Source: a bacterium HR40 (lineage in GTDB: Bacteria > Pseudomonadota > Alphaproteobacteria > Geminicoccales > Geminicoccaceae). Taken from it: DNA of 64,000 bases. Position 1 is the first letter of the stretch; every line of letters begins with the position of its first letter. Shown in pieces: positions 4,180 through 53,364 of the stretch. Where the stretch lies: positions 427,899 to 491,898 of the forward strand of contig BEIQ01000001.1 of assembly GCA_002898275.1 (NCBI GenBank), given 5' to 3'. A program made the translations under genes and the position numbers. The notes under the pieces were generated by a model. The model saw only the letters and a list, made by a program, of their open reading frames with translations. It did not search any database and was not told the origin of the DNA.

Positions 4180-5360
4180 GCCGCTACATGCGGGAGCTCC
4201 TGGCACCCACGCCGGTGCGCGCCACCAGACCTCGAGCCCCCGTCGTCATCTGGAATCTGATCCGTCGTTGCAACCTCAACTGCATCCACTGCTATTCGCT
4301 CTCCACCGACGTCGACTTCCCGGGAGAGCTGTCGACCGCGGAAGTCTTCGCGGTGCTCGAGGACCTCAAGGCCTTCGGGGTGCCGGCACTCGTTCTCTCG
4401 GGTGGCGAACCCCTTTTGCGCCCGGATATTTTCGAAATCTCTCGACATGCGAGAGGGCTCGGCTTCCACCTCGCCCTGTCGACCAACGGCGCGCTCATCG
4501 ACGAGGCCATGGCCGACCGCATCGCCGAGGTCGGCTACGACTATGTGGGAGTGTCGCTCGACGGCATCGGCGAGGTCCACGACCGTTTTCGTCGGGTACC
4601 CGGATGCTTCGAGGCGTCGCTGCGCGGCATCCGCCTCTGTCGCCAGCGCGGCGTGCGGGTGGGGCTGCGTTTCACCGTGACCGAACGCAATGTCGAAAGC
4701 CTGCCGGCGCTTCTCGACCTCATGGAGGAGGAGCAGGTCGATCGCTTCTACCTGTCCCACCTCGTCTATGCCGGGCGCGGTCACCGCTACCGCGAAGACG
4801 ATGCCTATCACCGGACGAGCCGCAGGGTCATGAACCTCCTCTTCGAGCGCTGTTGGCAACACCTGGTCGAAGGCCGCAACACCGAGTTCGTCACGGGCAA
4901 CAACGATGCCGATGCCGTCTATTTCCTGATCTGGGTCAAACGGAACTTTCCCGATCGCGCCGACCACATCTCGGCCCATCTCGCGGCCTGGGGTGGCAAT
5001 GCGAGCGGCGTCAACGTCGCCAACATCGACAATCTCGGCAACGTCCACCCCGACACCTTCTGGTGGCATCACAATCTGGGCAATGTGCGCGAACGTCCCT
5101 TCTCCGAGATCTGGCGCGATCCTCGGGATCCCCTCATGGCCGGGCTGCGGCGCCGTCCGCGACCGGTCGAGGGGCGGTGCGGCGCTTGCCGCTGGCTCGC
5201 CATTTGCAACGGCAATACCCGGGTGCGAGCGATGCGGCTGTTCGGCAATCCATGGGCCGAGGATCCGGCCTGCTACCTGAGCGACGCCGAGATCGGCTTG
5301 GCCGCATCGGCGCCAGGCTCGGCCGCGGCCGAGGAGGAGCTCGCCGATGTCGCGCTGTAG
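4167..5360 (+). CDS. nirJ: heme d1 biosynthesis radical SAM protein NirJ
   Basis: Radical SAM enzyme (397 aa) that removes the propionate side chains of didecarboxysiroheme during conversion to heme d1. The [4Fe-4S]/SAM motif C-x3-C-x2-C is at residues 35, 39 and 42 (RRCNLNCIHC). GGEP follows at about residue 86 (LSGGEPLLRPD). The C-terminus holds a second cysteine cluster (CGACRWLAIC ... DPAC), a SPASM-like auxiliary Fe-S region usual in NirJ. The ATG at 4167 lies in the last codons of nirH. A TWW-HHNLGNV stretch before the C-terminal cysteines is characteristic of NirJ/AhbD-type proteins. Confidence 0.94.
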   Translation: MFRLSRYMRELLAPTPVRATRPRAPVVIWNLIRRCNLNCIHCYSLSTDVDFPGELSTAEVFAVLEDLKAFGVPALVLSGGEPLLRPDIFEISRHARGLGFHLALSTNGALIDEAMADRIAEVGYDYVGVSLDGIGEVHDRFRRVPGCFEASLRGIRLCRQRGVRVGLRFTVTERNVESLPALLDLMEEEQVDRFYLSHLVYAGRGHRYREDDAYHRTSRRVMNLLFERCWQHLVEGRNTEFVTGNNDADAVYFLIWVKRNFPDRADHISAHLAAWGGNASGVNVANIDNLGNVHPDTFWWHHNLGNVRERPFSEIWRDPRDPLMAGLRRRPRPVEGRCGACRWLAICNGNTRVRAMRLFGNPWAEDPACYLSDAEIGLAASAPGSAAAEEELADVAL

Positions 5361-42311: not shown

Positions 42312-43639
42312 GGGCGTCCGCCCGACGGGTGGGCGACATCGTCGAGGTCACGGTGGAACGGCTCGGCCGCGACGGCGACGGGATAGCGCGCGTCGATGGC
42401 CGTCCCCTCTTCCTTCCCTCGACGCTGCCGGGAGAGCGGCTGCGCGCCCGCATCGTCGAAGACCACCGCGAATGGCGGCGCGGCGTGGCCCTCGAGCGCC
42501 TGCACAGCCCACCACACCCAACGCCGGTCTGTCCCCACTTCGGCACGTGCGGCGGCTGCCGCCTGCAGCACCTCCCGGAGACGGTCTACCGCGAGTTCCG
42601 GCTCGCGCAGGTGACCGAGGAGCTGACACGACGACGGCTGGTTTTCCCGCCGCCGCAGTTCGTCGCCGTGCCGCCGGCAAGCCGCAGACGGCTTCGCCTC
42701 GCCTGGCAGCGAGACAAAGGGCTGCGGTTGGGGTTCCGCCGCTTGCGCGGCCATGCGGTCGTCGACGTCGCCAGCTGTCCGGTGGCGCGTCCTGAGCTCG
42801 TGGGGCTGTTTGCGCCGCTGCGCCGTTTCCTCTCGGCACTCGCGCCAGCGGCAAAGGCCGGAGAAGCGCTCGCCACCCTCCTCGCTCAGGGCGTCGACCT
42901 GCTGCTCTGGCTGCCCGGACCCGTGGGGCCCGGCGAGCGGGAACGCCTTGCGCGCTTCGCCGCGGAGCAGGACCTCGCTCGGGTGGCGGTGGCGACCCCG
43001 GGCGGCACCCCCGAGCCGGTCGTGGTTCGCCGACCGCCGGAGCTCGCCTTCGGTCTTCTGCGGGTGCCGTTCCCGCCCGGGGCCTTCCTCCAGGCCACGG
43101 TCGAGGGCGAGGCGGTGCTCGCGGCGGCGGTGGCCAAAGCGGTGCCCGCCGGTGCGCGGCTCGTCGACCTGTTCGCCGGTCTCGGCGCACTCTCCCTTCC
43201 GATCGCCCACCGACTGGCGCGACTCCACCTCGTAGAAGGGGATGCGGCTGCCGTCGATGCGGTCAGGCGGGCGGTGCGCGCGAGGGGTGCGAACCGGATC
43301 GAGGTCGAGGCCCGCGACCTCCAGCGCCGTCCCCTCGTCGCGCGGGAGCTCGATCGCTTCGATGCCGCGATCCTCGACCCGCCGCGCGGTGGCGCCGCAG
43401 CCCAGGTCGCCGAAATCGCGGCAAGCGCCGTACCGATCCTCGTCTATGCCTCGTGCAATCCGGCCACCTTCGCGCGCGATCTCGCCACCCTCGTCGCATC
43501 CGGCTTTCGCCTCGAGGAGATCCAGGTCGTCGATCAATTTCTGTGGTCGGCGGAAGTCGAACTCGTCGCCCGCTTGGAGCGGCGCCATGCGCACGCGCCC
43601 AGCTGCCGGGTCCGCGGCGAGGCGGCTGGCTGCCCGTAA
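42308..43639 (+). CDS. 23S rRNA (uracil-C5) methyltransferase, RlmD/RumA-like
   Basis: 443-aa SAM-dependent m5U RNA methyltransferase. An N-terminal TRAM domain (about 8-60) is followed by the [4Fe-4S] motif CPHFGTCGGC near residue 77 with a later Cys (VASCPVA). The SAM motif is RLVDLFAGLGALSLPIA; the catalytic nucleophile is in YASCNPATFARDLATL. Methyltransferases of this group act on U1939 or U747 of 23S rRNA; which site is not decidable by eye. It overlaps the small upstream gene by 4 nt. Confidence 0.9.
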   Translation: MRASARRVGDIVEVTVERLGRDGDGIARVDGRPLFLPSTLPGERLRARIVEDHREWRRGVALERLHSPPHPTPVCPHFGTCGGCRLQHLPETVYREFRLAQVTEELTRRRLVFPPPQFVAVPPASRRRLRLAWQRDKGLRLGFRRLRGHAVVDVASCPVARPELVGLFAPLRRFLSALAPAAKAGEALATLLAQGVDLLLWLPGPVGPGERERLARFAAEQDLARVAVATPGGTPEPVVVRRPPELAFGLLRVPFPPGAFLQATVEGEAVLAAAVAKAVPAGARLVDLFAGLGALSLPIAHRLARLHLVEGDAAAVDAVRRAVRARGANRIEVEARDLQRRPLVARELDRFDAAILDPPRGGAAAQVAEIAASAVPILVYASCNPATFARDLATLVASGFRLEEIQVVDQFLWSAEVELVARLERRHAHAPSCRVRGEAAGCP

Positions 43640-43720
43640 AGCGCGCAAACTGCCCGCGCGACAGGCAGAGCGCTCGTGGCCACCGCCGCCTTCGACGCCG
43701 GCCATCGCGGTTCGGGAAGC

Positions 43721-43736
43721 TGGCACGGGAGTTGCA
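43721..43736 (+). promoter_or_regulatory. sigma-54 promoter for the pyrimidine degradation cluster
   Basis: TGGCACGGGAGTTGCA matches the sigma-54 consensus TGGCACG-N4-TTGCA at every defined base, with exact GG-N10-GC spacing. The predicted transcription start near 43747 gives a leader of about 84 nt to preT. It lies in the only non-coding gap (43640-43830) before the cluster. Sigma-54 use implies an NtrC-type or other enhancer-binding activator; I found no clear NtrC palindrome upstream. Confidence 0.75.
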
Positions 43737-43830
43737 CGAGCGACGGCGGGCAGGCCCGTGGAGCCATGCTTGACGGCGCAGGCAGCGACGGTAGCATCGG
43801 CGAGTACCGCGGGAGGCACGGAGACAACCG

Positions 43831-45171
43831 ATGAACGAGATCGAGGCCCGGCTATCTTCGTCCCCGGCCTCCCTCGCCGAACAGCTACCGCCCTTCTCGG
43901 ACAGCCAAGCCCTCCACGAGGCCGCACGCTGTCTCTATTGCTACGATGCCCCCTGTACCCACGCCTGCCCTACCCACATCGACGTGGCGACCTTCATCCG
44001 CCGTATCGCCACTGGCGATCCCCTGGGCGCCGCCAAGACCATCCTCGAGGCCAACATCCTCGGTCACAGCTGCGCTCGCGTCTGCCCCGTCGAGGAGCTG
44101 TGCGTAGGCGCCTGCGTGCTCCATGCCGAGGGCAAGCCGATCGCCATCGGTCGGCTCCAGCGCTTTGCTACCGATCACCTCTATGCCCGGGGCGTGTCCC
44201 TCTTTCGGCCGGGACCACCCAGTGGGCGGCGGGTCGCCGTGGTCGGGGCGGGCCCCGCTGGCTTGAGCTGTGCCGCCGAACTGGCGAAGCTCGGCCACGC
44301 GGTGACGGTGTTCGAGAAGCGGGAGCTCGCCGGCGGTCTTTCCACCTACGGCATCATCGGCCTGCGCGAGCCGGTGGCGGTCGCCCTTGCCGAGGTCGAG
44401 ATGATCCGCAGGCTCGGGGTGGCGATCGTGACCGGGCGCAGCCTCGGCGAGGACCTCGCGCTCGAGGAACTGCGCCGCGACTTCGAGGCCGTGTTCCTCG
44501 CGATTGGGCTTGGCGGCATGCCGAGGCTCGGCATTCCCGGCGAGGACTCCGTGGTCGACGGCCTGTCCTGGATCGAGCGCAGCAAGCTCGACCCCGCCAG
44601 CCTGCGGGTCGGCAAGGAGGTGGTGGTGATCGGTGCCGGCAATACGGCGATCGATGCGGCGACGGTGGCCGTGCGTCTCGGTGCCGAGCGGGTGACCATC
44701 GTCTACCGCCGCTCGCGCCGCGAGATGCCCGCCTACGATCACGAATACGGCTTTGCCCGGCTCGAGGGCATCGACTTCCGCTTCCTCACCCAACCGGTCC
44801 GTGTCCTCGTCGACAACGGCACGGTGCGCGGCCTCGCCTGCGTCCGCATGCGCCTCGGCCGAGCCGATGCCTCGGGCCGGGCACGACCGGAGCCGGTGCC
44901 GGGAAGCGAGTTCGTGCTGCCGTGCGATCAGGTCATCGCCGCTATCGGCCAGAACAAGGTCGGGTGGCTCGAGCGCTTGGGCATCGCGACCGAGAACGGA
45001 TTCGTTCGGGTCGACGAGGAATGGCGCACCAGCCTTCCCGGTGTCTGGGCCGGCGGCGACTGCATTCGGGCGCGCGGCGCGGCGTCGACGGTGATGGCGG
45101 TCGAGGACGGCAAGCGGGCAGCCCGCGCGATCCACCGTGCGCTTTGCGCCACCAGCGCCGCGGCCGAGTGA
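43831..45171 (+). CDS. preT: NAD-dependent dihydropyrimidine dehydrogenase subunit PreT
   Basis: 446-aa GltD-like flavoprotein that with PreA reduces uracil and thymine to dihydro forms (or runs in reverse). An N-terminal Fe-S domain has CLYCYDAPCTHACPTHIDV and CARVCPVEELCVGAC; the FAD loop is VGAGPAGLSCAAELAKLG at about residue 135; the NAD(P)H loop is VIGAGNTAIDAATVAVRLG near residue 265. ATG 43831 with GGAG 7 nt upstream. First gene of the cluster, 12 nt before preA. Confidence 0.92.
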   Translation: MNEIEARLSSSPASLAEQLPPFSDSQALHEAARCLYCYDAPCTHACPTHIDVATFIRRIATGDPLGAAKTILEANILGHSCARVCPVEELCVGACVLHAEGKPIAIGRLQRFATDHLYARGVSLFRPGPPSGRRVAVVGAGPAGLSCAAELAKLGHAVTVFEKRELAGGLSTYGIIGLREPVAVALAEVEMIRRLGVAIVTGRSLGEDLALEELRRDFEAVFLAIGLGGMPRLGIPGEDSVVDGLSWIERSKLDPASLRVGKEVVVIGAGNTAIDAATVAVRLGAERVTIVYRRSRREMPAYDHEYGFARLEGIDFRFLTQPVRVLVDNGTVRGLACVRMRLGRADASGRARPEPVPGSEFVLPCDQVIAAIGQNKVGWLERLGIATENGFVRVDEEWRTSLPGVWAGGDCIRARGAASTVMAVEDGKRAARAIHRALCATSAAAE

Positions 45172-45182
45172 GGAGAAGGACC

Positions 45183-46565
45183 ATGGCCGATCTCACCACC
45201 CGGTTCGGCGGCATCACGGCACCCAACCCCTTCTGGCTGGCCTCCGCCCCACCCACCAACTCGGCCCGACAGGTGCACCGCGCCTTCGAGGCGGGTTGGG
45301 GCGGAGCGGTGTGGAAGACCATCGGGGCACCGGTGCTCAATGTCGCCAATCGTTACGGCGCCTGGCACTGGAACGGCCAAAAGATGCTGGCCATCAACAA
45401 TGTCGAGCTCATCTCCGATCGCCCGCTCGACGTCAATCTGCGCGAAATCGCAGAAGTGAAGAGGACATGGCCCGATCGCGCGGTGATCGTCTCGGCCATG
45501 GTGGAGAGCACGCGCGAGGCGTGGCACGATATCGTCGCTCGCATCGAGGATACCGGCGCCGACGGCATCGAACTCAACTACGGCTGCCCGCACGGGATGT
45601 CGGAACGTGGCATGGGCAGTGCGGTGGGGCAGGTGCCGGAGTATTGCGAGCGGATCACCGCCTGGGTCATGGAACGGGCGTCCATCCCGGTGATCGTCAA
45701 GCTCACTCCCAACGTCACCGACATCCGTTGGCCAGCGCGGGCGGCGGTGCGTGCCGGCGCCAACGGGCTCAGCCTCATCAATACCATCAACTCGATCGTC
45801 GGCGTGGATCTCGATACGCTGCGCCTCGTCCCGGACATCGGTGGCAAGGGTGGGCATGGCGGCTACGCTGGGCCGGCGGTCAAACCCATTGCCCTGCATT
45901 TGCTCTCGGCCGTGGCCTCGGATCCCGAAGTGCGGGGCGCTGTGCCGATTTCCGGCATGGGCGGCATCGCCAGTTGGCGCGATGCGGCGGAATTCTTGCT
46001 CCTCGGAGCGACGAGCGTGCAGGTGTGCACGAGCGTGATGCATTGGGGCTTCCGCATCGTCGAGGATCTCGTCGACGGCTTGTCGCGATGGATGGATGAA
46101 AAGGGCTTTGCCACCCTCGACGAGGTGGTGGGCCGCGCCCTGCCGCAGCTCGCCGCTTTCGAGGACTTCGACCTGTCGTTTCGCACCGTGGCGCGCATCG
46201 ACCCCGAGCGCTGTATCCGTTGCGACCTTTGCTGGGTCGCCTGTAACGACACGGCCCACCAGTGCATCGACCTCGTCGACGCTTCTGGCCAAGTGGTCCA
46301 GCCCCGCAGCTGGGACGAAGGCTCGAATGGCAAGCGGCAGGCGACCGAGGGACGGCCGCAGCCGCGTGTGCGGGAGGCCGACTGCGTCGGCTGCCGGCTC
46401 TGCTACAACGTCTGTCCCGTCGAGGACTGCATCCGCATGGTCGAAGTCGATTCCGGCCGGCCCGCCGTGACCTGGGCCGAGCTCGTGCGCGAGCGCCCGG
46501 AAGTGGGCAGGGATTGGCAGGCGATGGAGCGCTACCGCCGCGACGTCGGCATCGATATCCACTGA
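45183..46565 (+). CDS. preA: NAD-dependent dihydropyrimidine dehydrogenase subunit PreA
   Basis: 460-aa catalytic subunit with an FMN TIM-barrel (DHOD-like) and C-terminal 2x[4Fe-4S] ferredoxin domain. The active-site cysteine lies in the ELNYGCPHGMSERGMG region near residue 135; GGIASWRDAAEFLLLGA binds FMN phosphate. Ferredoxin clusters are CIRCDLCWVAC and CVGCRLCYNVCP near the C-terminus. Receives electrons through PreT. A 23-nt gap precedes the dihydropyrimidinase. Confidence 0.94.
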   Translation: MADLTTRFGGITAPNPFWLASAPPTNSARQVHRAFEAGWGGAVWKTIGAPVLNVANRYGAWHWNGQKMLAINNVELISDRPLDVNLREIAEVKRTWPDRAVIVSAMVESTREAWHDIVARIEDTGADGIELNYGCPHGMSERGMGSAVGQVPEYCERITAWVMERASIPVIVKLTPNVTDIRWPARAAVRAGANGLSLINTINSIVGVDLDTLRLVPDIGGKGGHGGYAGPAVKPIALHLLSAVASDPEVRGAVPISGMGGIASWRDAAEFLLLGATSVQVCTSVMHWGFRIVEDLVDGLSRWMDEKGFATLDEVVGRALPQLAAFEDFDLSFRTVARIDPERCIRCDLCWVACNDTAHQCIDLVDASGQVVQPRSWDEGSNGKRQATEGRPQPRVREADCVGCRLCYNVCPVEDCIRMVEVDSGRPAVTWAELVRERPEVGRDWQAMERYRRDVGIDIH

Positions 46566-46588
46566 GCCACAGCCGGGAGGACCGTGGT

Positions 46589-47968
46589 ATGGCCCTGCTG
46601 ATCCGAGGCGGCGAAATCGTCACCGCCGACAGCCGCTATCGCGCCGATATCTGGATCGAAGACGAGACCATTACCCGCATCGGCCCCGACCTTCCGGCCG
46701 CGCCCGGTGCCGAGGTGGTGGATGCCACGGGCAAATACGTCTTTCCGGGTTTCATCGACCCGCACGTGCACATCCACCTGCCATTCATGGGAACCTTCGC
46801 CAAGGACAGCCATGAGACCGGCAGCATCGCTGCGCTCGTGGGTGGCACCACCACCTATATCGAGATGTGCTGTCCCAGCCGCGCCGACGATCTGCTCGCC
46901 AGTTACGAGCTGTGGAAGTCGAAGGCGGAGGGCAAAAGTGCCTGCGACTACAGCTTCCATATGGCCGTGCCAAAGTTCGACGAGAGCACGGAGGGCGAAC
47001 TGCGCGAGATCGTGAAGGACGGGATATCGTCGTTCAAGGTGTTCCTCGCTTACAAAAACTTTTTCGGGGTCGGCGACGAGGAGCTCTACCGCACGCTGCA
47101 GCTCGCGCGCGAACTCGGAGTCATCACCACGGCGCATTGCGAGAACGCCGAGCTCGTGGCTCGGCTGCAGCAGGCGGTCCTGGCACGCGGGATCACCGGC
47201 CCCGAGGGTCACGAGCCGAGCCGACCGGAGAGCGTGGAGGCGGAGGGCACCCACCGTTTCGTGACCTTCCTCGAGAACACCGGCGCGACCGGCTATGTGG
47301 TCCACCTCTCCTGCGCCCCGGCCCTGGCCGCTGCGGTCGCCGGCAAGTCGCGGGGCGTGCCGGTCTTCGTCGAGGTGGTGATCCCCCATCTCTTGCTCGA
47401 CAGGAGCTATGCCGAGCGACCGGACTTCGAAGGGGCGAAATATGTCATGTCGCCACCGTTGCGCGATGCCCGCAATCTGCCCGTCCTGTGGAACGCCCTC
47501 GCACACGGGATGATCGACACGGTGGCGACCGATCACTGTCCGTTCGATCTCGCGCAAAAGGACATGGGGCGCGGCGACTTCACCAAAATCCCGAATGGCA
47601 TGCCTGCGATCGAAGAACGGGTGAAGCTGCTTTGGACCTATGGAGTGAGGCGTGGGCGGCTCGATATCCACCGCTTCGTCGATGCGGCCAGTACGCGCGC
47701 CGCCAAACTCTTCGGTCTGTTTCCCAAGAAGGGGACGGTGGCGGTGGGTACGGATGCCGATCTCGTGATCTGGGATCCCGGCTGGCGCGGCCGCATCAGC
47801 GTCGCCAGCCAGAGCACCAACAACGACTACAATCCCTTCGAGGGCTTCGCGGTCGAAGGTCGGCCGCAGGTGGTGACGGTGCGCGGCAAGGTGCAAGTGC
47901 GCGACGGGGTTTTCGTCGGGGAACGGGGCCGCGGCCGGCTGTTGCGTCGCGAGCCGATCTGGTTTTGA
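46589..47968 (+). CDS. hydA: dihydropyrimidinase (hydantoinase family)
   Basis: 459-aa amidohydrolase-superfamily enzyme opening the ring of dihydrouracil/dihydrothymine to N-carbamoyl-beta-amino acids. Metal ligands: FIDPHVHIHLPF near residue 60, the carboxylated lysine in SSFKVFLAYKN near 150, TAHCENAEL near 185, VHLSCAP near 240, and VATDHCPFD near 315. Length fits. GGGAGGA lies about 10 nt before ATG 46589. The permease and ATPase for uptake follow directly. Confidence 0.93.
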   Translation: MALLIRGGEIVTADSRYRADIWIEDETITRIGPDLPAAPGAEVVDATGKYVFPGFIDPHVHIHLPFMGTFAKDSHETGSIAALVGGTTTYIEMCCPSRADDLLASYELWKSKAEGKSACDYSFHMAVPKFDESTEGELREIVKDGISSFKVFLAYKNFFGVGDEELYRTLQLARELGVITTAHCENAELVARLQQAVLARGITGPEGHEPSRPESVEAEGTHRFVTFLENTGATGYVVHLSCAPALAAAVAGKSRGVPVFVEVVIPHLLLDRSYAERPDFEGAKYVMSPPLRDARNLPVLWNALAHGMIDTVATDHCPFDLAQKDMGRGDFTKIPNGMPAIEERVKLLWTYGVRRGRLDIHRFVDAASTRAAKLFGLFPKKGTVAVGTDADLVIWDPGWRGRISVASQSTNNDYNPFEGFAVEGRPQVVTVRGKVQVRDGVFVGERGRGRLLRREPIWF

Positions 47969-47972
47969 GCCG

Positions 47973-48803
47973 ATGACGCTCGCCGACACCCCCGCAGTTG
48001 CCAGCGCGCCCAGGGAGCGGACGGGCGATCCGGCGCTGGTCTCGGTCCGCGCGGTGAGCATGGTCTACGCCGACGGCACGGTGGCGCTCGAGAATGCCAC
48101 TCTCGACGTGGGGGCGGGCGAGTTCGTGAGCCTGATCGGCCCCTCGGGCTGCGGCAAGACGACGCTTTTGCGGCTGCTCGCCGATCTCGCCGAACCCACC
48201 TCGGGCACCATCGCCATCGCTGGGCGCAGTCCGGCGGAGGCGCGACGGGCGCGTGCCTATGGCTATGTGTTCCAAGCCCCGACGCTCATGGATTGGCGCA
48301 CCGTGCGCGGCAACGTGCTGCTGCCGCTCGAAGTCATGGGCTTTCCCAAAGCCGAGCGGGAGGAACGGGCGCGGCGGATGCTCGCCCTCGTCGGGCTCGA
48401 ACGCTTCGCCGACCACTATCCGTGGCAGCTGTCGGGCGGCATGCAGCAGCGGGTGTCCATCGCCCGCGCTCTGGCCTTCGATCCGCAGCTGCTGTTCATG
48501 GACGAGCCCTTTGGCGCACTCGACGAGATCACCCGCGAGAACCTCAACCTCGAGCTGCTCCGGCTGTGGCGCGAGACTGGCAAGACCGTGATCTTCGTGA
48601 CGCACTCGATCCCGGAAGCCGTCTTCCTCTCCACGCGCATCGTCGTCATGACGCCGCGGCCGGGCAAGATCGAAACGGTGATCCCCGTCGACTTGCCGCA
48701 GCCGCGCAGCTTCGAGACGCGCGAGACGCGGCGGTTTTTCGAGCTGGCGACGGAGGTGCGAGAGGCCCTTCGGCGCGGCCATGGTTTCGAGGTGGAGGAC
48801 TGA
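47973..48803 (+). CDS. NitT/TauT-family ABC transporter ATP-binding protein
   Basis: 276-aa ATPase of the nitrate/taurine/pyrimidine-type importer family. Walker A GPSGCGKTTLLRLLADL near residue 57, Q-loop YVFQAPTLMDW, signature LSGGMQQRV, Walker B LLFMDEPFGALD, and H-loop FVTHSIPEA. It starts 4 nt after the dihydropyrimidinase stop. With the two permeases and binding protein downstream it probably imports a pyrimidine or its derivative; the ligand is inferred from context. Confidence 0.92.
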   Translation: MTLADTPAVASAPRERTGDPALVSVRAVSMVYADGTVALENATLDVGAGEFVSLIGPSGCGKTTLLRLLADLAEPTSGTIAIAGRSPAEARRARAYGYVFQAPTLMDWRTVRGNVLLPLEVMGFPKAEREERARRMLALVGLERFADHYPWQLSGGMQQRVSIARALAFDPQLLFMDEPFGALDEITRENLNLELLRLWRETGKTVIFVTHSIPEAVFLSTRIVVMTPRPGKIETVIPVDLPQPRSFETRETRRFFELATEVREALRRGHGFEVED

Positions 48804-48824
48804 AAAGAGAGCGGCAGAGGACCC

Positions 48825-49010
48825 ATGCATCGCGTCGCACATGCAGGACGGCGGGCCGGCGGGGAGGCGGCCCTCGTCATCGCCTCGACCTCCCGTGACC
48901 ATCGCCCCTTCGAGCTCGCCGCCACCGCATGCCTCGGCAGCCTGACGATGAGGGGGCTCGCTCCGATACAGGGCGAGCAGGGTGGCGCCCCGGGGCGGGC
49001 ACGGCGGTGA
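48825..49010 (+). CDS. possible small ORF ahead of the permease
   Basis: A 61-codon frame with ATG at 48825, GAGG 4-8 nt upstream, ending in TGA that overlaps the GTG start of the permease (GTGA). The predicted peptide is Arg/Ala/Gly-rich with no membrane helix, repeat or known motif. It fills the otherwise empty 203-nt gap between the ATPase and the permease. It could be a translational coupling leader or chance; high GC makes such frames common. Confidence 0.2.
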   Translation: MHRVAHAGRRAGGEAALVIASTSRDHRPFELAATACLGSLTMRGLAPIQGEQGGAPGRARR

Positions 49011-49867
49011 GGCACTCCCGACTCGCGGCCTGGGGGCCGCTTCTCGTCGTGGCAGCGGTGGCGATGGCGATTTACCTGCCGCTCGTCGTCGTCGCCAACT
49101 ATCCGCTCGCCGCCCGCACGCTCGCACGCGGCGCCACCCTTCCCTGCGATTCGGCGCTCGCCTGTACCTTTTTCCTGCGCAATCCGGTACTGCCGGCGCC
49201 GAACCAACTGCTGGGCGGGATCCTCGCCCTCTCCTGGCCACCAGGCGCCCCTTACGCCCTGCCCCTGAACGCCTGGTGGACCGCCATCGAGACCGTCGTC
49301 GGTCTTTCGCTGGCGGCGACGGTGGGCTTCCTCTTCGCGGTGCTGCTGGTGCTCTCGCGCGCCTTCCAACTGAGCGTGCTGCCGTGGATCGTTGCCTCGC
49401 AGACGGTGCCGATCGTCGCTCTGGCGCCGATGCTCGTGGTCCTTCTCGGTCGCTACGGCGTGCAGGGCTGGTTGCCGAAGGCGATCATCGCTGCCTACAT
49501 CGCGTTCTTTCCGATTACCATCGGTCTCGCGAAGGGGCTGCAGAGCCCCGATCGGCTCGCCCTCGACCTCATGAAGACTTGGAATGCGACGACCTTCCAG
49601 GTCTTCATGCGCCTGCGCATCCCCGCCTCGCTGCCGTTTCTCTTCACCGCCCTCAAAGTGTCGACGGCAGCGGCCCTCATCGGGGCCATCGTCGGCGAGA
49701 TGTCGACCATCAGCTTTGCCGGTCTCGGCAAAATGCTGTCGGAGAACGCCCGCGCCTCGGATGTGGTCGGCACATGGGTGCTGATGCTCGCCTGCGCCTT
49801 GCTCGGGATCCTGTTGATTGCGGTCGTGGACTTGGTGGAGCGACTGGTGACCCCATGGCGACGCTGA
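49007..49867 (+). CDS. ABC transporter permease (NitT/TauT type), first
   Basis: 286-aa inner-membrane permease of the BPD_transp_1 family with about seven helices. A first helix (LLVVAAVAMAIYLPLVVVAN) precedes an extended periplasmic loop, then AIETVVGLSLAATVGFLFAVLL and the EAA loop MKTWNATTFQVFMRLRIPASLPFLFTALK. The GTG at 49007 is preferred because it begins shortly before the first helix; an ATG at 48929 would add 26 polar residues. Coupled to the second permease by a 13-nt overlap. Confidence 0.85.
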   Translation: MRHSRLAAWGPLLVVAAVAMAIYLPLVVVANYPLAARTLARGATLPCDSALACTFFLRNPVLPAPNQLLGGILALSWPPGAPYALPLNAWWTAIETVVGLSLAATVGFLFAVLLVLSRAFQLSVLPWIVASQTVPIVALAPMLVVLLGRYGVQGWLPKAIIAAYIAFFPITIGLAKGLQSPDRLALDLMKTWNATTFQVFMRLRIPASLPFLFTALKVSTAAALIGAIVGEMSTISFAGLGKMLSENARASDVVGTWVLMLACALLGILLIAVVDLVERLVTPWRR

Positions 49868-50856
49868 GCCCCGCTGTCAGCGATCAGCGGCCTCGCCCGG
49901 GGATGGCCAAGCCACCGATCGCGGCCCTCGTCCTCTGTCTCCTCGGCCATCTCGCGCTCGTCGCCTTTCTCCTGGCGTGGTGGCGGGAAGAAACGGCAGC
50001 CCCGTTCGCGTACCGACTGCTTTTGGGGTTGGCGGTGGCGGTGGGCGGGATCGGGGTGGGCGGGATCGCCCGTCATCTCGCGCGGCACCAACTCGACCCG
50101 GTGCGCGCCTTCGTGCCCGCCCTCTTGACCTTGCTCTTCGGCCTGCTGGCCCTCGAGGCCGTGCTGCGGGCTTACGCCGTGCCGCCCGGCCTGTGGCCGA
50201 CGCCGAGCGCGGTCTTCGCCCGGCTGTGGACGGCGCGCCGGGTCCTGCTCGCCGACGCCTGGCAGACCTTCGTCTTGGAGGCGGTCGTGGGTTTCGGCAT
50301 CGGCGTGGGATGGGCCCTGCCGACCGCTCTTCTCGTCGCCCGGTGCCCGTTCCTCCAGCGCGGCTTCATGCCCTATGCGGCGGCTTTCGCCAGCATTCCC
50401 ATTCCGGCGATGGCGCCGGTGGCGGTGCACATGTTCGGGCTCGGCTGGCCGTCGAAAGCCGCGGTGGTCGCCGTGACCGTCTATTTCCCGGTCGTCGTCA
50501 ACAGCGTGCGCGGCCTGCTCGAGGTCGATCGCAACCTGCTCGATCTCATGCGCAGCTACGCCGCCGACGAGCGTACCACCTTCTGGCGGGTCCGCATTCC
50601 CAACGCGCTGCCGTTCCTGTTCACCGCTCTCAAGCTCGGCACCGCGCTCGCGATGATCGGTGCGATCGTCGGCGAGTTCTTCGGCGCGACGGGGCAGGGG
50701 CTCGGCTTCCGCATCCAGATCGAAGCCGGCCGCTTCGGCTTCGACATGGTATGGGCCGCCATCCTCGTCGCCTCGCTGCTCGGCATCGCCTGGTTCGGCC
50801 TGATCGCCGGACTGGAGCGGCGGTTCACCGGCTGGCACGTGTCGCTGCGGGAGTGA
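49855..50856 (+). CDS. ABC transporter permease (NitT/TauT type), second
   Basis: 333-aa permease related to the preceding one. Helices include ALVLCLLGHLALVAFLLAWW and LLLGLAVAVGGIGVGGIA, a longer N-terminal membrane region than usual, followed by the typical core with FVLEAVVGFGIGVGWALPTALLV and the EAA loop LMRSYAADERTTFWRVRIPNALPFLFTALKLG. Two different permeases suggest a heterodimeric channel. A 55-nt gap leads to the binding protein. Confidence 0.88.
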   Translation: MATLSPAVSDQRPRPGMAKPPIAALVLCLLGHLALVAFLLAWWREETAAPFAYRLLLGLAVAVGGIGVGGIARHLARHQLDPVRAFVPALLTLLFGLLALEAVLRAYAVPPGLWPTPSAVFARLWTARRVLLADAWQTFVLEAVVGFGIGVGWALPTALLVARCPFLQRGFMPYAAAFASIPIPAMAPVAVHMFGLGWPSKAAVVAVTVYFPVVVNSVRGLLEVDRNLLDLMRSYAADERTTFWRVRIPNALPFLFTALKLGTALAMIGAIVGEFFGATGQGLGFRIQIEAGRFGFDMVWAAILVASLLGIAWFGLIAGLERRFTGWHVSLRE

Positions 50857-50911
50857 CGCCGTGCCGCCATCCTTGTCACCATCCCGAGGCAACCGAAAGA
50901 AGGAGAGAGCC

Positions 50912-51994
50912 ATGCAGCGCACCTCGCTCGCCGGAGCCGCTCTTGCCTGCGCCGTCGCGGCCGCCCCTGCCGCTGCCGACACGGTGCCGATCGCCCTTCA
51001 GCTCAAATGGTTCCCGCAAGCCCAGTTCGCCGGCTACTTCGTCGCCAAGGACAAGGGCTTCTACGCCGAGGAAGGGCTCGATGTGACCCTCCTGCCGATC
51101 GGCGACCAGTCGCCGATCCAGACCGTGGTCTCGGGAGCCGCCGACTTCGGTACCACCTGGATCGCGGATTTGCTCGCGGCGCGGGAGAAGGGCCTCCCCG
51201 TGGTGCACATCGCCCAGGTCTTCCAGCGCTCCGGCTTCGCCATGGTGGCGCTCAAAGCCACTGGCCTCAAGGATCTCTGCGACCTCGAGGGACGCAGCGT
51301 CGGCGTCTGGCCTTCCGGCAACGAGTATCCAGCTGTGGCCCTGTTCCGCAAATGCGGGCTCACCAGCTCGCTCGACCCGACGGTGTCCAAACCGGACGTG
51401 ACCGCCGTCACCTATCCCTTCGATCCGGCGCTCGTTTTCCCGGATCGCGTCGATGTCGTATCGGCCATGATCTACAACGAGGTCGATCAAATCGTCGGCC
51501 TCGGTTACGATCTCGACAAGCTCGACGTGTGGCTCTTGCCGGATCAGGGCATTAACTTGCTGGAGGACTTGATTTTCACTACCGAACGAGTGCTAGCAGC
51601 CGAGAACTACAAGGGCTCCGGCCTGTCGGGACGCGAGATCGCGACCCGACTGCTGCGGGCGAGCCTCAAGGGCTGGGCCTACGCCGTCGCCCACCAGGAA
51701 GAGACTGTCGAAAACCACGTCCTGCCGGTTTGCGGCAACACCTGCATGGGCTCCGGTACCCGCGCCGACGCCCGGGCGCATCAGATCTGGCAGATGCGCG
51801 AGATCGCGAAACTGTATGCGGCGGGAGCCACCGAGCGCGGCTGTCCGGGCTTTCTCGATCCCGCTGCCTATGCAGCTTCCGTGCAGCTGCTGGTGGATCA
51901 GAGGATCTTGAGCGAGGCTCCGGATGCCAGAACCGTCGATTACGGGCCGTGGCAGGAGGCGACCGGCAAGACCGTCGAGGCGTGTCGCAGTTGA
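50912..51994 (+). CDS. THI5/NMT1-type ABC substrate-binding protein
   Basis: 360-aa periplasmic binding protein with an Ala-rich signal peptide ending near AAPAAAD. The mature start VPIALQLKWFPQAQFAGYFVAKDKGFYAEEGLDV is the NMT1/THI5-like hallmark, used for hydroxymethylpyrimidine, riboflavin and related ring compounds. SGAADFGTTWIADLLAAREKGLP follows. The family preference for pyrimidines fits the degradation genes. AAGGAGAG precedes ATG 50912. Confidence 0.9.
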   Translation: MQRTSLAGAALACAVAAAPAAADTVPIALQLKWFPQAQFAGYFVAKDKGFYAEEGLDVTLLPIGDQSPIQTVVSGAADFGTTWIADLLAAREKGLPVVHIAQVFQRSGFAMVALKATGLKDLCDLEGRSVGVWPSGNEYPAVALFRKCGLTSSLDPTVSKPDVTAVTYPFDPALVFPDRVDVVSAMIYNEVDQIVGLGYDLDKLDVWLLPDQGINLLEDLIFTTERVLAAENYKGSGLSGREIATRLLRASLKGWAYAVAHQEETVENHVLPVCGNTCMGSGTRADARAHQIWQMREIAKLYAAGATERGCPGFLDPAAYAASVQLLVDQRILSEAPDARTVDYGPWQEATGKTVEACRS

Positions 51995-52044
51995 GCTCGG
52001 AGCTCGACGGCCGAGCTGGCGCTGCGAGCGCGGGAGGACTCACC

Positions 52045-53364
52045 ATGCCCCTCGATCCCAAGCGAACCATTGCCGAGCTCGAGGAACTGCGGGCCCGCAC
52101 CGGCGACGAGAACGGTGCCTGGCGGGTCGCATGGACCGATGTCTGGCTCGATGCCCGGCGATGGTACAAGGAGAAGTTGGCTGCCCTACCGGTCGAAGTG
52201 CACGAGGATGCAGCCGGCAATCTGTGGGCGACGCTTTCCGGCGAACGCCCCGAGGCGCTGCTCATGGGCGGCCATCTCGATTCGGTTCCTGGCGGCGGCT
52301 GGCTCGACGGCTGCCTCAACGTCCTCGCCGGTCTCGAGGTGCTGCGTCGGCTCCACGAGCAGTACCGCGGCCGGCCGCCGGTCACGGTGCGGCTCGTCGA
52401 TTGGGCCGACGAGGAGGGCGCCCGGTTCGGCCGCAGCCTCCTCGGGTCCTCCGCCTTCTCGGGCAGCCTGCGCCCGGAGCTCGAGAAGGACCGGCGCGAC
52501 CATGACGGCATCCGGCTCGAGGACGCGCTCCGCCGTTGCGGTGTGGACATGGACCGCATGCTCGAGGCGCAGGCGGAGCGTCAGCATGCCGCCGCCTACC
52601 TCGAGCTCCACATCGAACAGGGACCGGTGTTGCTCGATCTCGACCTGCCGCTCGGAGCGGTGCTGGGCACCTTCGGCGTCGAACGCCACGCCGTGACCTT
52701 CCACGGCCAGGCGGCGCACTCCGGTTCGACACCCATGAACCGGCGCAAGGATGCGTTCCTCGCTGCGGCCAAGATGGCCCCGGAGATCTACGCCATCACC
52801 GGCCGTCACGGTGGCGTGTCGACCATTGGCAGCTGTACGACGCTACCTGGTATCGTCACGAGTGTGGTCGAGACCTGCCGCATCACCCTCGACCAGCGCC
52901 ATCTCGATGCCGACGGCCTGGCCCGGCTGCTCGCCGAGGCGAAGGCCGCATCCGAACGCTTTGCCCGCGAAGGTGGCCTGCCGCCGCCCGAATGGGAGAC
53001 CATCTGGCGGATCGAGCCGATCCCCTTCCACCCCGACCTCATCGAATTGTGCGATCGGGCGATCCGAGAGGTGGTGGGGACCTCCCACCGTCTGCCGAGC
53101 GGGCCGCTGCACGACGCGGCGGAGGTGGCGCGGGCCGGCATCCCGACGGTGATGATGTTCACCCAGAGCCTCCACGGCATCAGCCACAACCGGATCGAGG
53201 ACACCAAGCGCGAACATTTGGAACTCGCGGTGCGGGCCTTCGACCGGCTGGCGGACCTCACGATCGATTGGATCCTCGCCCGCACCTCCGCCGCGGGATC
53301 GGCAGGCGCTCAGGTGCCGGCGAGCAACGACTTCGCCGCCTCCTCGAGAAAGTCCATGGCATAG
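52045..53364 (+). CDS. Zn-dependent amidohydrolase (beta-ureidopropionase / N-carbamoyl-amino acid hydrolase, HyuC type)
   Basis: 439-aa M20-like metallohydrolase. Metal ligands GGHLDSVPGGGWLDGCLN near residue 78, DWADEEGARFGRSLLGS near residue 117, ELHIEQGPVL near 190 and the terminal His in QSLHGISHNRIEDT. It would hydrolyse N-carbamoyl-beta-alanine to beta-alanine, CO2 and NH3, completing the pathway; allantoate amidohydrolase is the closest alternative. CGGGAGG precedes ATG 52045. Its end overlaps the convergent sarcosine oxidase gamma gene by 55 nt. Confidence 0.88.
   Translation: MPLDPKRTIAELEELRARTGDENGAWRVAWTDVWLDARRWYKEKLAALPVEVHEDAAGNLWATLSGERPEALLMGGHLDSVPGGGWLDGCLNVLAGLEVLRRLHEQYRGRPPVTVRLVDWADEEGARFGRSLLGSSAFSGSLRPELEKDRRDHDGIRLEDALRRCGVDMDRMLEAQAERQHAAAYLELHIEQGPVLLDLDLPLGAVLGTFGVERHAVTFHGQAAHSGSTPMNRRKDAFLAAAKMAPEIYAITGRHGGVSTIGSCTTLPGIVTSVVETCRITLDQRHLDADGLARLLAEAKAASERFAREGGLPPPEWETIWRIEPIPFHPDLIELCDRAIREVVGTSHRLPSGPLHDAAEVARAGIPTVMMFTQSLHGISHNRIEDTKREHLELAVRAFDRLADLTIDWILARTSAAGSAGAQVPASNDFAASSRKSMA

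Follow-up and report, generated by a model that had tools for sequence, protein, structure and literature searches.

Rut is an oxidative pathway of pyrimidine degradation and is not homologous to the reductive route. Escherichia coli rutABCDEFG is listed as a target of the RpoN (sigma-54) holoenzyme (PMC8743547), and the table of the Burkholderia cenocepacia NtrC regulon gives -5.1 for dihydropyrimidine dehydrogenase, -3.7 for dihydropyrimidinase and -3.8 for a putative pyrimidine permease of the reductive pathway (PMC5491218). Here we analyze a stretch of 64,000 nucleotides from an alphaproteobacterium of the family Geminicoccaceae (bacterium HR40, contig BEIQ01000001.1), referred to below as the window, in which a sigma-54-type element precedes a gene cluster for reductive pyrimidine degradation, preT-preA-hydA-ABC-hyuC (ABC, ATP-binding cassette transporter genes). 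We give an even chance to the reading that this is a horizontally exchanged operon in which a basal sigma-70 promoter is accompanied by a working, lineage-specific one of the sigma-54 type.

On this showing, sigma-54/NtrC control of pyrimidine catabolism, the reductive route included, is already in print and not new. For this reason a contrast drawn in an earlier, sequence-only reading of the window, which had set sigma-54 control of the cluster against a usual "sigma-70/RutR logic", fails: rut itself is listed as an RpoN target (PMC8743547), and reductive-pathway genes are listed in the B. cenocepacia NtrC regulon (PMC5491218). The locus resembles E. coli rut under NtrC/RpoN in that pyrimidine catabolism is combined with sigma-54 promoter recognition, and differs in that the window's genome has no RutR equivalog over cut-off. 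With B. cenocepacia it shares genes of the reductive pathway, whose regulation by NtrC is measured there and predicted here; the transporter listed for B. cenocepacia is a permease, whereas that of the window is a THI5-type ABC system.

Candidate sigma-54 promoter upstream of preT

The non-coding gap 5' of preT spans 191 bases (43640-43830, plus strand); it follows a co-directional open reading frame (ORF) that ends at 43639 and reaches up to the start codon of preT, an ATG at 43831. The sequence TGGCACGGGAGTTGCA at 43721-43736 (+) has zero mismatches to the sigma-54 consensus TGGCACG-N4-TTGCW (here TGGCACG-N4-TTGCA), and its 16-base core includes both the GG of the -24 and the GC of the -12 region. 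It lies on the sense strand, its -12 region separated from the ATG by 98 bases, and transcription would be predicted to start at about 43747. The exact match in front of the cluster, reported by the sequence-only reading, is thus confirmed, and it is the only one in the whole genome (2,892,134 bases, 8 contigs). Under a first-order model, 1.7e-5 exact matches are expected by chance in the preT gap on that strand, and 0.05 in all non-coding DNA (a value scaled up from the window, where 6,190 bases are non-ORF).

Several results weigh against a functional reading of this match. The same model predicts 0.53 exact matches genome-wide; the location of the exact match is unusual, while the existence of one somewhere in the genome is not. 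When up to one mismatch is allowed, the genome contains 27 matches (one exact and 26 with one mismatch), no clear excess over the 22 (none of them exact) found with the pattern read backwards as a control. With genes called by a simple codon-position rule, the intergenic share was 5/27 for the pattern versus 7/22 for the control, and intergenic matches before a same-strand gene numbered three in either case. A match to the consensus is thus not enough by itself to recognize true sites in this genome, and only the exactness and the place of the preT element argue in its favour.

The machinery needed for such a promoter is encoded in the window's genome. An rpoN gene (206.8 bits) is present, as are eight matches to the sigma-54 activator domain (Sigma54_activat), five of them strong; among these proteins we take one to be NtrC-like and one NtrX-like from reading their sequences. 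A sigma-54-type site, TGGCATCGTCCTTGCA, precedes the start of the ammonium transporter gene amtB. For comparison we used genus g2, the only other genus with such a PreT among 31 genomes of the family searched. In all three g2 species amtB is preceded by a site matching 10 or 11 of 12 consensus positions with both core dinucleotides, a survey that leaves out a second amtB copy in genome G022. All three species of genus g6 reach no more than 7 or 8 of 12 upstream of amtB in their best match with the core, so that the rule giving 3/3 sites in g2 gives 0/3 canonical ones there. Since amtB carries a sigma-54-type site both here and in 3/3 g2 species, sigma-54 is probably in use in the window's genome.

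The NtrC box has the consensus GCAC-N7-GTGC, and a convincing one was not found near the preT element. The sole similar site within 43200-43830 has one mismatch and falls within the preceding gene, at a distance of 445 bases 5' of the element and against a background of 0.43 such sites per 630 bases. The test is uninformative, because by the same rule no NtrC box with up to one mismatch is found before amtB either.

Three further observations concern sigma-54 elsewhere in these genomes. In the window's genome, a sigma-54-like site with one mismatch (L005:1501-1516) lies 82 bases 5' of a gene that appears flagellin-like from its sequence. Within the window, the one-mismatch site TGGCTCGCCATTTGCA at 5193-5208 is found 142 bases 5' of a c-type-cytochrome-like gene, inside a minus-strand ORF. 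The gene at L059:1087-2439 encodes a sigma-54 activator which, we presume, resembles the PEP-CTERM-associated response regulator PrsR.

Conservation of the element in relatives

Sixty relatives were searched with PreT, and 30 loci were retained, the window's and 29 others; four of the latter (L055-L058) hold distant PreT paralogs of 36-39% identity. By PreT the nearest are the three g2 species, with 71-74% identity to the window's protein. We scanned about 450 bases upstream of preT for matches of at least 9 of 12 positions including the GG and GC core, and no qualifying match was found in any of the three g2 loci. Absence from close relatives retaining the cluster had been named beforehand, in the sequence-only reading, as refuting, and absence is what we found in 3/3 g2 species, though their preT neighbourhood is different and the whole upstream region is not homologous to the window's. 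The same three species keep the sigma-54-type site of amtB, which adds to the weight against the element, as does the fact that the window's genus is represented by one species in this comparison. An rpoN gene was detected in two of the three g2 genomes, the third (G022) being fragmented and 90% complete.

Sigma-54 control conserved across the family was considered and rejected. Among the 29 other loci, two g6 loci (L034 and L045) reach 10 of 12 with the core, and five loci (L036, L037, L050, L051 and L058) reach 9 of 12. To judge from their sequences, the g6 sites in L034, L037 and L045 apparently lie in the end of the upstream coding region. As a separate observation, all three g2 species (L030, L031, L032) share the conserved stretch GGCTAAACTACGGGAAACGCAGC immediately 5' of preT.

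Sigma-70-like elements and other transcription routes

The gap of the window also contains a sigma-70-like element, TTGACG-16-TAGCAT, at 43770-43797 (+), with a predicted start at about 43804. It matches 9 of 12 consensus positions, a score equalled by one of 300 shuffles of the gap. Before preT of g2, TTGAAG-17-TAATGT is conserved in 3/3 species but weak (7 of 12; 28-56 of 300 shuffles as good), and in all four g6 loci examined TTGACC is followed after 18 bases by TAGCCT or TAGCGT (score 8; 4-13 of 300 shuffles as good). Since sigma-70-like pairs precede preT in the window, g2 and g6, we think that basal sigma-70 transcription would be the shared state, and that the sigma-54 element, if working, would be particular to this lineage.

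These elements could also mean that the sigma-54 match arose by chance and that the sigma-70-type promoter at 43770-43797 is the only one to drive the operon, an explanation to which we assign somewhat less than an even chance. It accords with the good sigma-70-like element in the gap, with the TTGA-type -35/-10-like pairs before preT of the relatives (3/3 g2, 4/4 g6 loci), with the 0.53 exact sigma-54 matches expected genome-wide and with the lack of conservation of the sigma-54 element. It is harder to reconcile with the small number of exact matches expected, only 0.05 over the whole of the non-coding DNA and 1.7e-5 for the gap, and the g2 pair, at 7 of 12, is equalled by 28-56 of 300 shuffles.

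Alternatively, transcription of the cluster might come mostly from the co-directional gene upstream of it, or a TetR-type repressor might govern it, so that neither element of the gap would matter; we regard this as improbable. The upstream ORF indeed lies on the same strand and ends at 43639, and a terminator-like site was not found in 43500-44000. In g2, however, the upstream neighbour appears from its sequence to be divergent, so the operon requires a promoter of its own there. As to the repressor, one protein of the window's genome scores 70.7 bits with the RutR model, far under the cut-off of 368 bits, and no RutR equivalog exceeded this cut-off in any of five genomes searched, the window's included. 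That the window carries a structured leader was considered and rejected: its folding energy did not surpass that of shuffled sequences (z 0.04 and 0.99), and at the Rfam gathering score only three tRNAs, and no leader, were matched.

We return to the reading with two promoters. The operon would be transcribed from the basal sigma-70-type promoter at 43770-43797, and in this lineage the sigma-54 promoter at 43721-43736, acting together with NtrC, would boost it when nitrogen is limiting. Such nitrogen control is plausible. The match is exact, lies on the sense strand and is the sole one genome-wide; rpoN, NtrC- and NtrX-like proteins, an amtB site and the one-mismatch site before the flagellin-like gene are present, and NtrC regulation of reductive-pathway genes is listed elsewhere (PMC5491218). 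The proposal of sigma-54 and nitrogen control made in the sequence-only reading is thus upheld as to the element, its strand and place and the accompanying genes; it is weakened by the absence of the element in 3/3 g2 species and by the sigma-70-like element in the same gap.

Origin of the cluster

We computed a tree of 104 PreT proteins (quick IQ-TREE, with support by the Shimodaira-Hasegawa-like approximate likelihood ratio test only). The window's protein falls within a set of 25 rows (support 99, starred), as do all three g2 species, which account for five rows since two of them are present twice; this is the set which also holds eight rows of Thermaceae, eight of Acidobacteria and three long-branched ones. 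The other alphaproteobacterial PreT proteins of the tree, including those of the window's own family, form a separate set of 33 rows together with some beta- and gammaproteobacteria (support 100, starred). The grouping of the window with g2 has a support of 91 and is not starred.

All eight Thermaceae loci show high identity to the window: 65-69% in PreT, 73-77% in PreA and 70-75% in HydA, and 76-83% in the ABC ATPase in the seven loci where it was found. The order of genes is also that of the window, for preT-preA-hydA in 8/8 loci, for the ATPase in 7/8 and for permease 1 in 3/8, as far as each locus extends and allowing for inserted DNA in some of them. The binding protein and hyuC lie past the locus ends or were not found. 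The PreT tree, together with gene order and identity, suggests that the cluster was apparently shared by horizontal exchange between the lineage of the window and Thermaceae, members of another phylum.

A candidate PyrR-type leader before preT in Thermaceae

The cluster of Meiothermus and other Thermaceae has the preT-preA-hydA-ABC order of the window and differs from it in two respects: rpoN was found in none of six Thermaceae genomes searched, and a hairpin, GGTTAA-TC-GCTCCnGnGAGnGC-CGAACC, lies about 110-300 bases before preT in 8/8 loci (L068, L069, L071, L072, L074, L075, L076 and L077). A pattern search over 106 loci found the hairpin only in these eight. In seven loci a terminator-like stem comes next, together with a T-rich stretch that is better in some than in others; in the eighth, L071, this second part is degenerate. 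A covariance model, run on 34 sources with L108-L147 left out, also detected the hairpin before preT in a Deinococcales metagenome-assembled genome that is absent from the model (L079:4842-4873, E 2.2e-5). The pairs of the terminator-like stem hold in 90.5% of cells and two of them have changed on both sides, but 29 of 500 shuffles were as good.

PyrR binds a CNGNGA hexaloop carried on a short stem, and PyrR attenuation of pyr operons is known in Bacillus and Thermus. The Thermaceae preT leader resembles these attenuators in its CNGNGA hairpin and in that the genomes encode PyrR, which was over the curated cut-off in 6/6 Thermaceae genomes searched. By this cut-off PyrR is absent from G000, G001 and G015, and the window's alphaproteobacterium is without it. 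In the same six Thermaceae genomes a hairpin with the same loop precedes pyrR, and its 3' arm enters a purine-rich, ribosome-binding-like stretch (AAAGGAG in four, GAAGGGAGG in two), where we would place a putative short leader ORF, followed by a terminator-like stem. In 15/15 hairpins the four stem pairs are kept and one of them varies between C-G, A-U and G-C, in a set where the search imposed the loop and the closing C-G pair and where eight of the 15 are the rows defining the element.

The difference from known attenuators would lie in the sign of the response, and in the window the hairpin was not found. The segment AACC is common to the hairpin and the terminator-like stem. Since it is the 5' arm of this stem that the hairpin shares sequence with, PyrR binding before preT would favour expression. 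We infer that PyrR with uridine monophosphate (UMP) would block the terminator-like stem and turn pyrimidine degradation on. The related hairpin before pyrR is predicted to act with the opposite sign, turning synthesis off.

Some results speak against a PyrR leader. Rfam gave no match at the gathering score for 11 loci, nor for one leader at E values up to 5. The covariance model is strong only on the preT copy of each genome, and pyrR leaders are weak (2/6, with E 0.076 and 0.28). Unaided folding of seven Thermaceae leaders favours the terminator-like stem, which fits the antiterminator model without PyrR bound and equally fits no PyrR role at all. Literature linking PyrR to pyrimidine degradation was not found within open-access coverage, which lacks most subscription journals, including in the consulted part of PMC3766115.

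A PyrR element before preT was not found in the window or in g2. We tentatively put forward a broader picture, which we rate below an even chance: one operon exchanged between phyla would have been wired oppositely in its hosts. In Thermaceae, excess UMP would act through a PyrR hairpin antiterminator to turn degradation on, and through the pyrR hairpin to turn synthesis off; in the alphaproteobacterium, with no leader and no PyrR over the curated cut-off, a sigma-54 promoter would bring nitrogen control. If the sigma-54 element works, it shows that a transferred catabolic operon can answer to nitrogen in one of its hosts while it does not in another. The Thermaceae leader, for its part, predicts that PyrR controls pyrimidine synthesis and degradation with opposite sign via related hairpins, and it may matter more than the sigma-54 element.

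Genes of the cluster and the proposed pathway

All genes of the cluster lie on the plus strand, and the starts of preA, hydA and hyuC given here were refined. The preT product (43831-45171), the predicted NAD(P)H-side subunit of dihydropyrimidine dehydrogenase, adjoins preA and carries Fer4_20 and Pyr_redox_2 domains (Pfam); no NCBIfam model matched it over cut-off. preA (45183-46565) would encode the subunit with flavin mononucleotide and iron-sulphur centres (NCBIfam equivalog, 654 bits versus a cut-off of 335). Its LNYGCPHGM is aligned with LNLSCPHGM in 1gt8, a solved structure of dihydropyrimidine dehydrogenase; we take 1gt8 to be the pig enzyme and the aligned region that of the catalytic cysteine. 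hydA (46589-47968) is assigned to dihydropyrimidinase (NCBIfam equivalog, 528.6 bits versus 393.25), and its product aligns over nearly full length with the hydantoinase 1gkp, presumably from Thermus sp.

The last gene (52045-53364) encodes a HyuC-type amidohydrolase, probably N-carbamoyl-beta-alanine amidohydrolase (hydantoinase/carbamoylase subfamily, 271.5 bits versus 204). Its PDB matches include both beta-alanine synthases and N-carbamoyl-L-amino-acid hydrolases, which makes hydrolysis of N-carbamoyl-beta-alanine a likely and not a certain third step. At the level of families the reductive set (PreTA, dihydropyrimidinase, carbamoylase-family amidase) is complete, in agreement with the sequence-only reading, and the activities are predicted. 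Uracil or thymine would enter through the ABC transporter, as the gene neighbourhood suggests; PreTA would then reduce it, HydA would open the ring, and hydrolysis by HyuC would yield a beta-amino acid, CO2 and ammonia.

The transporter genes were placed by Pfam, NCBIfam giving no match over cut-off for any of them. They comprise an ATPase (47973-48803), two binding-protein-dependent (BPD) permeases (48929-49867, and 49903-50856 with an alternative ATG at 49855) and an NMT1/THI5-like substrate-binding protein (50912-51994; NMT1, 130.2 bits). Among solved structures the latter is closest to 4nmy, to 3ix1, which binds an aminopyrimidine, and to THI5 proteins; this bears out the proposed membership in the THI5/ThiY family; the family assignment stands beside a full set of permeases and ATPase. 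These relatives leave the ligand unfixed, and uracil or thymine is a putative substrate only.

In g2 all genes of the window's cluster are present in the same order, and two more, for a further permease and a further binding protein, are inserted after the ATPase gene and ahead of that for permease 1 (2/2 species examined). This additional pair, an ABC permease and a THI5-like binding protein with no counterpart in the window, is located at L148:5065-6565 and L149:8264-9764.

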